From: Lutjanus erythropterus
Taxonomy: Eukaryota; Chordata; Actinopteri; Lutjaniformes; Lutjanidae
Reading direction: 5' to 3'
NCBI GenBank assembly: GCA_020091685.1
Contig: CM034607.1
Coordinates: 1,928,944-1,992,943, forward strand
DNA length: 64,000 bases
Shown here: positions 55,746-61,197 of the stretch, in pieces
Numbering within the stretch: the first letter of the stretch is position 1
Layout of the letters: each line of letters starts with the position of its first letter
Made by a program: the position numbers and the translations under genes
Notes under the pieces: generated by a model
Told to the model about the DNA's origin: nothing
Databases searched by the model: none
What the model saw: the letters and a program-made list of their open reading frames with translations, nothing else

Positions 55746-56104
55746 AGTGTAGATATGGCTGCTGCCAGATGTCTGCTGACTGAAGATCAGTTTCTGTGCT
55801 CCATCTGTCTGGATGTCTTCACTGATCCAGTCACCACACCATGTGGACACAACTTCTGTAAAACCTGCATCTCTGAATACTGGAATATTAATGTCCAGTG
55901 TCAGTGTCCCAACTGTAAAAAGGTTTTCAACACAAGACCTGAGCTGCAGGTCAATATTTTCATCTCTGAGATGGCTGCTCAGTTCAGACAGGCAGCTCAA
56001 CGGAAAGCCAGCAGCAGCAGATCAAAGCAACACGTTTCCAAACCAGGAGAAGTTCCCCGTGACTATAGTCTGAGAGTCCCCAAAGACCACACTGTCTCTG
56101 TGAT
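55746..56104 (+). CDS. RING-GBD gene, exon 2 (5' UTR 9 nt, RING)
   Basis: After the acceptor CAG (55743-55745) nine bases precede the ATG at 55755. Encodes residues 1-116 plus two bases. The frame matches finTRIM/TRIM first exons to KPGEVP (residues 97-101). TRIM proteins would then continue with a B-box Cys pair, but here PRDYSLRVPKDHTVSV follows. The donor is AT|GTATGAGT, directly followed by a (TG)n run. If it is not spliced, the frame reads on to a stop at 56175-56177 and gives a 140-residue RING-only product. Confidence 0.75.
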
Positions 56105-58372: not shown

Positions 58373-61197
58373 TTGATGTGTCAAACTGATCTTCAATAAT
58401 AATGAAGCAGTGCAGCATTTGTTGAAGAGTTTCATCAGGATTTTCAAACACGACAACTAAATTTGCAAAACACTGTTGACATGTTCACAACTTCTTGTTG
58501 ATGTTTTTAAATTAAAATTTTAACAATCTATGTTTTTTTTATGGTATAAACACTTCTTTTTTGAGCTAAACAGATGAAGTTAATTAATTTATGAGTTGTT
58601 TGGCAGAAAATTACTGTTTTGATGTTGATGAATCATGAATCAACACCAACCATTCAATCATTTTCTGTCACTAGATATTGACTGTATATCCTTGGATTTT
58701 TAAACTGTTGTCAGCTTAAACTCGGGGAAATTGTGATGGATGCTGATTTTACTTGTAAACTGATTCAACAGATAAGTGATATGTAGCCCTGAAATATATT
58801 CCGTTTTTTTTTTGTTTTTGTTTTTTTGCAGTTTTTCACCAAGAGCTGACTTTTTCTTTGCCGAAATGAAAAAGCCTGTGCAACACATATTCATGAAGTA
58901 GTTTGACATTTTGGGAAAATTTGCATATTTGTTATATTATTTATTTCAAAAGGTGGAGTGTTCACATAAAGAGTAACTGAGAATTAGGTTACAAGAGCAA
59001 TACCACTCGTGTTTGTGAGGGCACAGAGAGCAGCTGGGTAGGTTAGCTTAGCATACAAACAAGGGGAAACAGCTAGCCTATCTCTGTGCAGTGGTTACAG
59101 AATCTACCCATCAAACCTCTAAAATTCAACTGCTGTCATTTGACATCTCATTTATTTAATCTGTGCAAAAGCTTAAATGTAAAACTGAGAAACTGAGAAT
59201 AGTGTAAAACAGTCGAAGCATAAAACAGTTTTTCTCCATGTTTTCTTCATGTTAAACTGCACTGAGAGGAGTGTAGAGTGATCTGAATCTGACTGTAGGG
59301 TGATGCAAGTGTGCGAGTGTGTGTGAGAGTGTCAGATATCACTGGTCTGATTTCAAAAGATGCAGGATTTTCTTTTGCTGTCCCACTGATTTAAAAAATA
59401 TGTAATTTAAAAAAACAGTACTGGAATCTTAGTGGTTGTTGAGGTTCTCTTAATTTTTCTCTGGCAATGATCTGACTTCAGTTTGATGGGAAATGCTTTT
59501 CTTCTACAGAGCTGACTTTATTTTTCATATCTGCAGTCTGGGGCTGCAACATACAAGAGTTTAATTTTTCCAGGTGGTTTCATTTTTTTCATGATATTAG
59601 GAAATAGTAAAGAATGTCCATCACAGTTTCTTAAAGCCTAAGTCAAAATGTTCAAACTGCTTGTTTTGTCTGACTGACCAAAAAGATGTTCAGTTTTCAT
59701 ATCTGGAAAGAAAATCATAAAATGAGAAAAAATGAGAAAAATGCATCTGCCACTGCATAAAACTCATACAAATGATTTAGAAATCAATTTAAAAGCACCT
59801 GAACATACTAAAGTCACACAGTATGGGCCTGAGTTTACACAGAGTCCCTACTGGACAGTTTAGTAAGAAACTGACCCCTGGTTGGACCCACTTGCTGTCA
59901 CGAGCTTGAGGTATTAAACTGAATATTGGTATTAATTGTGTTTCTCTGTAGGGCAGGTGATGTCCACACTGAGCCCCACTGTGCATTATAACTGTTAAAG
60001 TTATTATTACAGTTATTGCCCTGGTGACATGTTAGAGATGTGCTGGTTCTTAAAAAACACAGGAAGAGTCTCCAGCTCACCTCTCCAACACCTCACTGTG
60101 GTTCACTTCTCCTCCTGGTTATATGCGTTCATTTATGCACAAATAAACTCTTCCCAAAATGTATTGTTGGGGCCTATTGTAAACTGGGTCACTATGTTTT
60201 TTTAAAAAGTGCATCACTTGAAAAAAAAAAAAAAACTATTTGGGAAACGCTGGGTTACAGCACTGATGCCATCCCTTCCTTTATATGTACCAATGTTGTC
60301 ATGCAGAAACCTACATCAGTTCACATAGGTAAACATTTTTAGAAAGACTTTGTAAAATAGCATTATGATGCTAAAATAATTGTCCAGACCTGAATCCAAA
60401 AGGGTGCTACTGGGCAGTAAAGAATTATATGAAAACAAAAAATTATGGGTGTGCTCAAATAGTGCCCATAAATGTCCAGTGCGCCTGTTTGGGACCCAGC
60501 ATCAGAGAGGCTTTTGTTTGTTAGATCAGAAATGTAGAGATGAGGCTGCAGAAGAGAGCTGAACAAACTTAAACACTGTCTCAGATGAGTCCTGCTCAGT
60601 CCTCATACTGTGCATCGGCCTCATTACAGAAACTATGTATATATAACTATGTGTCTTCTGTGAAGTTTCAAAGACATGTCTTCTTATTACAGAACCAATT
60701 TGTTCTGCTGTATCTGTGTTAAGAATCTATGCCAGCCTGTATCCATGACAACAATGACTTTATTGAAACAGGTGATGGTGACATTTGTGTGATGTCATCT
60801 GAAGGTGCATTAATACAACCTGATCGTGTCTGTTGTTTCCCCCCCTGCAGCACCTCCTCCACCTCCCTCTCATAGCGGTCCCCCTCTTCCTCGTCCATCT
60901 CCCCGCAGCTCGGCTCCAGCCACTCGTGCTCCCCCGTCCAGAGGCGGCCGGCAAGCCCCTCCTCCCCCACCTCTGTCCAGAGTTCCCATCCCAGCTTCTC
61001 CTCCCCCACCTTCCCCCAAACCAAGAACTCTGCATGCCCCACCTCCCCCACGTCCGTCCAGAGTTCCCATCTCAGCTCCTCCTCCTCCGCCTTCCTCCAG
61101 ACCAGGAACTCTGCATGCCCCGCCTCCTCCACCTCCTCCCACCAGGGGAAGTCAGCAGCCCCCTCCACCTCCCCACCATCACCACCATCCCATATAG
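55755..61197 (+). CDS. RING-WASP GBD-proline-rich fusion protein, 297 aa (four coding exons)
   Basis: Coding exons 55755-56104, 56260-56302, 58153-58306 and 60851-61197; all junctions are GT-AG with matching phases 2, 0 and 1. Residues 1-100 are a finTRIM-like N-terminus with a complete C3HC4 RING (C15, C18, C30, H32, C35, C38, C51, C54), so an E3 ubiquitin-ligase activity is expected. From residue 118 the protein is WASP-like: HIGHTGWDPNTGFD, the end of the CRIB motif, then a GBD (132-182) close to N-WASP including ISEAQLKDRETSKVIYDFI. It ends with 114 mostly Pro/Ser/Arg residues (51 prolines). No B-box, coiled coil, SPRY, WH1, WH2 or acidic tail. Start ATG has G at -3 and +4. The upstream ISRE suggests interferon control. 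A RING-GBD fusion is not a family I know; the actin-regulatory role is inference. Confidence 0.8.
56260..56302 (+). CDS. RING-GBD gene, exon 3 (CRIB second half)
   Basis: 43 bases between the acceptor CTTCCTCAG and the donor GAT|GTGAGT. Adds M117 (shared codon) and HIGHTGWDPNTGFD (118-131), the second half of the WASP CRIB motif. N-WASP has V where this has T in the H-x-G-W block. The N-terminal half of the motif (I-S-x-P...F) is absent because the RING exon precedes it. Confidence 0.78.
56303..58152 (+). other. Intron 3 of the RING-GBD gene, with MITE fragment
   Basis: Contains a fragment of the 'gagctgcaac' MITE (about 57560-57690, ending ATTAGTTGCAACC). The long plus-strand frame at 56350-56679 and others have no known domain. 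Confidence 0.5.
58153..58306 (+). CDS. RING-GBD gene, exon 4 (WASP GBD)
   Basis: Starts after TTGCAG and ends CAG G|GTAGGA in phase 1. Encodes residues 132-182, the helical part of the WASP GTPase-binding domain that in WASP/N-WASP holds the VCA helix in the autoinhibited state. The block LFDMCGISEAQLKDRETSKV is essentially the N-WASP sequence as I recall it. Changes are concentrated near KKKGGMEAV. A (CA)n tract starts 11 bases after the donor. Confidence 0.85.
58318..58371. repeat. (CA)n microsatellite next to the exon 4 donor
   Basis: Pure CA run in intron 4, starting 11 bases after the splice junction. Confidence 0.95.
59030..59130. repeat. Dispersed repeat in intron 4 ('ggttagcttagcat')
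   Basis: Contains GGTTAGCTTAGCATACAAAC and GGGGAAACAGCTAGCCTATC, a recurrent teleost interspersed repeat. Confidence 0.5.
60851..61197 (+). CDS. RING-GBD gene, exon 5 (proline-rich tail and stop)
   Basis: Acceptor CCCCCTGCAG; the shared codon gives A183, matching the ..RRQAPPPP.. junction of N-WASP. Residues 184-297 contain several PPPPP runs (profilin/SH3-type ligands, for example APPPPPLS), a tandem 27-residue repeat (225-251 and 252-278, each SRVPI...TLHAPPPP), and a C-terminal HHHHH. It stops at TAG (61195-61197), before any WH2 or acidic domain. An AATAAA signal follows at 61516-61521, a plausible 3' end. Confidence 0.8.
60974..61135 (+). repeat. 81-bp tandem duplication within the proline-rich exon
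   Basis: Units start at 60974 and 61055 (GTCCAGAGTTCCCATC in both) and keep the reading frame (27 codons). Confidence 0.8.

Follow-up and report, generated by a model that had tools for sequence, protein, structure and literature searches.

Fish TRIM genes gain domains by rearrangement, as described for zebrafish ftr52 (RanBD-CypA), ftr06 (chromodomain) and btr31 in the available text of two studies (PMC3137616, PMC2657112). A foreign domain took the place of the C-terminal B30.2 domain in ftr52 and ftr06, and in the TRIM5-CypA proteins of owl monkey and macaque, the ligand domain of the TRIM protein was repeatedly swapped for a host protein bound by pathogens (available text of PMC3137616). 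Here we describe a 64,000-nucleotide stretch of contig CM034607.1 from the fish Lutjanus erythropterus (the window), in which a RING exon shared with the finTRIM (ftr) genes of teleosts is followed by exons for an N-WASP-type GTPase-binding domain (GBD) and a proline-rich tail. We read this locus, with middling confidence, as a chimeric finTRIM-wasla gene encoding a putative RING ligase with the WASP autoinhibitory domain as its substrate arm. As far as those sources go, its nearest precedent is ftr52; the window gene also lacks the B-boxes and the coiled coil, and it gains the GBD and the proline tail. Unlike TRIM5-CypA, which arose by retrotransposition (same source), it is built from multi-exon genomic pieces. 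Neither the combination of a TRIM RING with a WASP GBD nor a WASP GBD as a new TRIM domain was found in the literature searched (subscription journals lay outside it). No family name was found there either, in agreement with the sequence-only reading, an earlier reading by a model that saw only the letters and knew of no established family with this order.

Four coding exons on the plus strand of the window (Table 1) join in phases 2, 0 and 1 to a frame of 297 codons and a stop without any internal stop, in the order finTRIM-type RING, N-WASP GBD with half of the CRIB motif, and proline-rich tail. All three joins have GT-AG sites. The good acceptor directly before the start codon (TTCTCAG/AGTGTAGATATG) points to an additional 5' non-coding exon, and the translated lead-in SVDM upstream of the start is also present in the fish finTRIMs P0004 and P0017. 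An artefact of the assembly or of the gene model, in which the two halves would lie apart or be transcribed separately, is a reading to which we give hardly any weight. Although the window comes from one assembly only, it contains no N, the RING exon and the first GBD exon are 155 bp apart, and similar fusions occur in other species.

The RING was identified by Pfam in the joined protein (zf-RING_UBOX, E = 4.5e-12, 46.2 bits, residues 15-52; zf-C3HC4, 40.2 bits; both above the cut-off), and the nearest solved RING structure is that of TRIM25 (residues 4-80 aligned, E = 1.2e-19). Three protein searches returned 147, 1280 and 6490 matches, of which 120 each were listed, giving 338 distinct proteins; the counts below refer to these listed proteins. 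The search with the RING exon against a large protein database gave the 147 matches, and among the best 120 of them the named ones are almost all from fish, the best having 83% identity over 89% of the query. The nearest RING matches come from Dicentrarchus and Scortum, which points to a percomorph source. The RING and its TRIM25-like flanks appear to be intact, and ubiquitin-ligase activity is predicted.

The second part of the protein matched the Pfam family PBD (E = 1.9e-11, 44.5 bits, residues 117-167), and residues 118-182 aligned without gaps to residues 208-272 of the N-WASP chain 6uhc_H (E = 8.3e-36). Judged from these matches, chance is excluded for both the RING and the GBD. The 43-nt exon, which is entered in phase 2 and left in phase 0, is equal to human WAS c.735-777, an exon deduced from the splice variants c.734+2, c.735-1 and c.777+1 (available text of PMC9304939). 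In the GBD, 60 of 65 residues (92%) are equal to those of WASLa, the WAID (the autoinhibitory part of the GBD) having four changes from the WASL sequence common to eight of the 338 proteins. The next human WAS exon is presumably 154 nt long. The tail motif PGTLxAPP..RG..PPPHH was found in the window and in three of the 338 proteins (two named WASP-like a and one hypothetical protein). The donor on the WASP side thus looks like wasla. The finTRIM-type C3HC4 RING, the N-WASP-like end with CRIB remnant, GBD, polyproline region and stop, and the joining of the exons in matching phases, all claimed in the sequence-only reading, are therefore borne out by these domain matches, the tail motif and the open frame.

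Unlike WASLa, the joined frame has no WH1, no basic region, half of the CRIB and no WH2/C/A, and the encoded protein should not activate Arp2/3. No WH1 was found by tblastn of human WASL against the window (best E = 0.68), nor by Pfam in the three plus-strand frames of 25760-55754, a scan of modest sensitivity in which the known GBD exon scored only 15.8 bits; a WH1 hint at 29932 was dropped, its flanks having no homology. The same tblastn search found no VCA within the 64 kb (best E = 2.5), and the frame stops after the polyproline exon. On the TRIM side, no B-box family was among the 20 Pfam families listed for the joined protein, and Pfam found no TRIM_CC, PRY or SPRY in it, the scan downstream of 56259 covering one plus-strand frame (49003-63999). 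Because the B-box and coiled coil, the WH1, the full CRIB and the VCA are missing, the protein is by definition neither a TRIM nor a WASP. Fish S-WASP, as described in the available text of PMC3298513, resembles it in having a WAID and a short polyproline region without a basic region or CA. S-WASP has WH1 and CRIB where the window has the RING and half a CRIB, and an intact S-WASP gene at this locus was ruled out because no WH1 was found.

Table 1. Features of the window, numbered from its first letter; a slash marks the splice point.
Feature	Position	Strand	Remarks
RING exon with 9 nt of 5' untranslated region	55746..56104	+	coding 55755-56104; acceptor TTCTCAG/AGTGTAGAT-ATG; donor GAT/GTATGA, phase 2; residues 1 to about 104: RING with its two flanking segments; from there to 117: short tail with only chance matches
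Breakpoint zone	56058..56104	+	finTRIM homology stops near residue 104
43-nt exon	56260..56302	+	encodes HIGHTGWDPNTGFD, second half of CRIB; length and phases as in human WAS exon 8
154-nt exon	58153..58306	+	WAID, 51 aa
Polyproline exon	60851..61197	+	wasla type, shortened after His run; stop TAG
Repeat in polyproline exon	60951-61136		in frame, 81 bp (27 codons), 2.3 copies
I-set immunoglobulin domain, exon-sized frame	1971-2342	-	E = 3e-13; axon-guidance type receptor part (by eye)
hAT C-terminal dimerisation region	22624-22983	-	E = 1.7e-10
Uninterrupted frame of 307 aa	32431-33354	-	hydrophobic segments, multi-pass membrane-like (by eye); no Pfam match
hAT transposon remains	50276-52282	-	BED zinc finger and Hermes-type DNA-binding domain at 51206-52282; piece 50276-50815 assigned by eye, no Pfam match
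Tc1-like transposase remnant	63265-63675	+	HTH_Tnp_Tc3_2, E = 1.4e-5, under the family cut-off

The search for RING plus GBD in other fish, proposed in the sequence-only reading, was carried out by phmmer with both window domains. A RING was found in 294 and a GBD in 51 of the listed proteins, and seven carried both, although chimeric queries push chimeras to the top of such lists. In the smelts Hypomesus transpacificus (P0127) and Osmerus eperlanus (P0130) the GBD is joined after the B-box, and in the cod Gadus morhua (P0134) after the start of the PRY. In the wrasse Cheilinus undulatus (P0137) it replaces the B30.2 with the coiled coil kept: the finTRIM part ends in ...RRVQQ and is followed by the WAID, whereas P0236 continues into B30.2 at the same point. 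P0122 from Leuciscus waleckii has a RING, then WH1 and two GBDs. P0142 (451 aa, contig of 1959 bp) and P0240 (528 aa, contig of 1896 bp) are uninterrupted frames of RING, B-box and coiled coil (by Pfam) with the GBD where the B30.2 would stand; PBD was above the Pfam cut-off in P0240 only, the GBD of P0142 being recognized by phmmer (E = 2.2e-18). Because finTRIM genes have several introns, the contigs of these two look like spliced transcripts. P0137, P0142 and P0240 thus differ from the window in keeping the coiled coil before a GBD at the B30.2 position. The two related pairs, P0142 and P0240 (62% identical over 499 columns) and the smelt proteins (82% over 309 aligned positions), have diverged while RING and GBD stayed in frame, and this is the strongest hint of a possible use for the architecture. 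Each of the smelt contigs is equal in size to that of seven further TRIM39-, TRIM21- or RFP-like entries.

We reconstructed a tree of the RING sequences (69 rows, 101 columns) without P0122, P0095 and P0111, which had long branches. Its starred branches force at least five label changes, and a single clade of six fused proteins and the window was rejected by the approximately unbiased test (P = 0.00022), which assumes a group named before the tree is seen; here the group was set by architecture, and an earlier quick tree had already been viewed. One origin for the window and P0137 was not rejected (P = 0.405). In the quick tree with the three long-branched sequences kept (window outside the group), the starred branches force three changes, and in the GBD tree, which has little resolution (65 columns), one change only. 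More than one origin of TRIM-GBD fusions is well supported by the RING comparison, but the number of origins is uncertain because the RING tree is based on few columns and sequence exchange among finTRIMs may occur.

The junction itself lies inside the finTRIM RING/B-box exon. Among the 294 RING-exon alignments, 288 end at or before residue 104, within that exon, and the other six extend to residues 106-110; residues 103-117 gave only chance matches within the 338 proteins (best E = 9). The finTRIM exon has 555-594 coding nucleotides (available text of PMC2657112), with both limits divisible by three, which would imply a native phase of 0, unlike the phase 2 needed by the WASP exon. The stop of homology and the phase mismatch together suggest that the junction was made by a break within this exon. 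A simple shuffle of a whole exon was therefore ruled out. The proposal in the sequence-only reading that a TRIM first exon was shuffled in front of WASL exons accordingly stands as to the joining of a RING to WASL-derived GBD and polyproline exons, and fails as to an intact TRIM first exon. The RING donor site is either new or left over from the preceding WASP exon. Ordinary finTRIMs begin B-box 1 with CDVC (CDVCTGTK...), and the window has RDYS at that place. This resembles the RDVY to which the B-box 1 start is degraded in the finTRIM-type proteins P0222 and P0183 from Sander, suggesting that B-box 1 may have been lost before the fusion, in the parent. Such Sander proteins are possibly of the parent type of the window RING exon.

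Several points weigh against a functional chimeric gene. Five of the seven fused proteins come from database gene models that were probably predicted automatically and in which neighbouring genes could have been merged, and the exact window junction was found in no protein among the best 120 matches listed in one search. The sequence-only reading had held that the absence of an orthologous fusion in related species would speak against it; so far this absence holds for the exact junction but does not extend to the architecture. The window protein has neither the B-box nor the coiled coil with which TRIMs oligomerise, and no transcript of the window copy was found. The consensus splice sites claimed in that reading are present as GT-AG at all joins, but the donor leading from RING to GBD (GAT/GTATGA) is mediocre: it scored 3.5 bits, a level reached by 13% of all GTs in the window, whereas only 1.5% and 2.8% reach the scores of the other two donors. 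An equal score was obtained for a phase-1 GT lying 8 nt further on. Of the 20 GTs listed near the RING frame's end, 7 are in phase 2, and the matching phase at the RING donor alone is thus poor evidence. Five GBD residues differ from WASLa, which is nearly invariant in the listed fish, and this may mean relaxed constraint. In simulations of neutral drift to five replacements, the frame stayed open in 5-10% of cases with insertions and deletions and in 44% without them, and an open frame is thus weak proof of function. The openness of the polyproline exon likewise tells little because its second frame is also open (the third has one stop). The copies of the polyproline repeat differ at three synonymous and eight replacement positions (over 25.5 and 55.5 sites), with no sign of purifying selection.

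These observations bear on a reading that we find quite possible, if somewhat doubtful, namely that the locus is a young non-functional fragment, in which a wasla duplicate lacking WH1 and VCA came by chance to lie behind a truncated finTRIM and has stayed open through the short time elapsed. The unseen junction, the five changes among 65 GBD residues, the repeat without visible selection and the share of simulations in which the frame survived neutrally (5-44%, according to the rate of insertions and deletions) all fit a fragment, as do the VCA-less GBD copies in other fish, two of them in models with transposase-like pieces (P0124 and P0131). However, GT-AG sites at all three joins, intact features of the RING and WAID, the same architecture in separate lineages and the two related pairs that stayed open through divergence argue against it.

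GBD copies were seen in several other settings. Eleven fish proteins (P0121, P0123, P0125, P0126, P0128, P0129, P0132, P0135, P0136, P0146 and P0234) have two or three WASP GBDs in tandem, with a WH2-type signature only in P0125, and GBD arrays seem to be a wider habit of fish. In P0247 from Misgurnus anguillicaudatus (535 aa), two WASP-type GBDs without WH2 stand behind an AIG1/GIMAP GTPase domain, so that the module is present in a second family of immune type. In P0124 (Scomber) the WASP GBDs follow a Sleeping-Beauty-type transposase helix-turn-helix and a piece like a leucine-rich repeat, and in P0131 (Aldrovandia) a hAT-like stretch recognized by eye; both models may be merged.

What the fusions have in common is the WAID. 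It is present in all eight TRIM-GBD proteins (the seven listed ones and the window) and WH2 was not found in any of them, precomputed domain lists and Pfam having been consulted for the seven. The eight fusions contain nine GBD copies, among which the WAID is invariant at 25 of 51 positions, gaps ignored; its changes showed no significant preference for positions variable in WASP/WASL (of 26 changed positions, 11 lie among the 16 variable ones, P = 0.078). Four of the eight (window, P0137, P0142 and P0240) lack the front half of the CRIB, P0137 and P0142 having no CRIB at all, and the smelt and cod fusions have a complete CRIB with the basic stretch. The CRIB consensus is IxxPxxFxHxxHVG. In the window, only the HIGHTG half (HIGHTGWD) is left, with HTG for HVG, and Cdc42 binding is doubtful because the IxxPxxF half is gone. 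A Cdc42-responsive ligase, in which the CRIB end would sense GTP-loaded Cdc42 and switch the RING, is thus very unlikely; the retained HIGHTGWD and the complete CRIB of the smelt and cod fusions would fit such a switch, but the lost half with the altered HVG in the window and the CRIB-less P0137 and P0142 would not. The VCA-binding part of the GBD is almost whole (N-WASP 208-272, with 195-207 lost). Accordingly, of the link to Cdc42-linked and WASP-family machinery drawn in the sequence-only reading, the Cdc42 side has become doubtful and the VCA-binding side is kept.

In N-WASP, the VCA-binding part of the GBD spans residues 210-274 and the Cdc42-binding part 195-253, and the GBD has an affinity of 28.8 uM for a separate VCA peptide (available text of PMC5217673). 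Binding in trans is therefore physically possible. For the favoured chimeric gene, we propose that a rearrangement at the DNA level would have set the 5' part of a finTRIM (leader splice site, RING and flanks) before a duplicated, 3'-truncated wasla piece contributing the GBD and polyproline exons. In N-WASP, the autoinhibitory domain clasps the C-helix of the VCA; in the window protein, which has no VCA, it may instead grip in trans the exposed C-helix of active N-WASP or WASP, and active WASP-family proteins would then be silenced, ubiquitylated or both, by a trans inhibitor, a degrader or a protein that is both. The proline tail may recruit SH3 and profilin partners. For the window protein, we infer expression, ligase activity, binding in trans, tail partners and an effect on actin. 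If this is true, ubiquitin ligases guided by the module that holds N-WASP inactive arose in fish on more than one occasion. TRIM immunity would then be tied directly to Arp2/3 control, active WASP proteins would have a natural inhibitor in trans or a degrader, and the swapping of TRIM C-termini would extend past the CypA and chromodomain cases. As it recurs in several fish, the TRIM-GBD fusion may repeatedly have connected immune ubiquitin signalling with the control of actin.

Several bacterial effectors seize the same GBD region and thereby switch on actin assembly, which opens a further reading: the GBD may be an integrated decoy, a bait for bacterial actin effectors, which the RING would ubiquitylate or on which it would signal. 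IcsA attaches to the VCA-binding part of the N-WASP GBD (available text of PMC5217673), and the GBD or N-WASP is described as a target of EspFU, EspF, TmeA, SemD and NpeA in the parts of the literature available. The reading is likened to the integrated decoys of plant NLRs and to TRIM5-CypA; the portion kept in all eight fusions is the VCA-binding, and also IcsA-bound, one rather than the full Cdc42 portion, and the several origins and the GBD module of the GIMAP-type P0247 would also fit. It is unlikely in our view, since the effectors named come from germs studied in mammals and the WASL fragments in the transposase-bearing models P0124 and P0131 argue for random spread. The broader form, in which teleosts repeatedly joined the N-WASP autoinhibitory domain to fast-evolving immune proteins (finTRIM several times, GIMAP once) as a decoy for the GBD-binding actin effectors of intracellular pathogens, with the window gene as a recent and minimal RING-GBD-polyproline form, likewise has an outside chance; if true, the integrated-decoy idea for actin-hijacking bacteria could be put to the test in a vertebrate.

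Three scans of viral contigs gave no relative, and L001 from genomic contigs proved to be a chance match, dCMP-deaminase-like as named by eye. Elsewhere in the window, we noted transposon remains of hAT and Tc1-like type, an exon-sized immunoglobulin frame and a membrane-like frame (Table 1).

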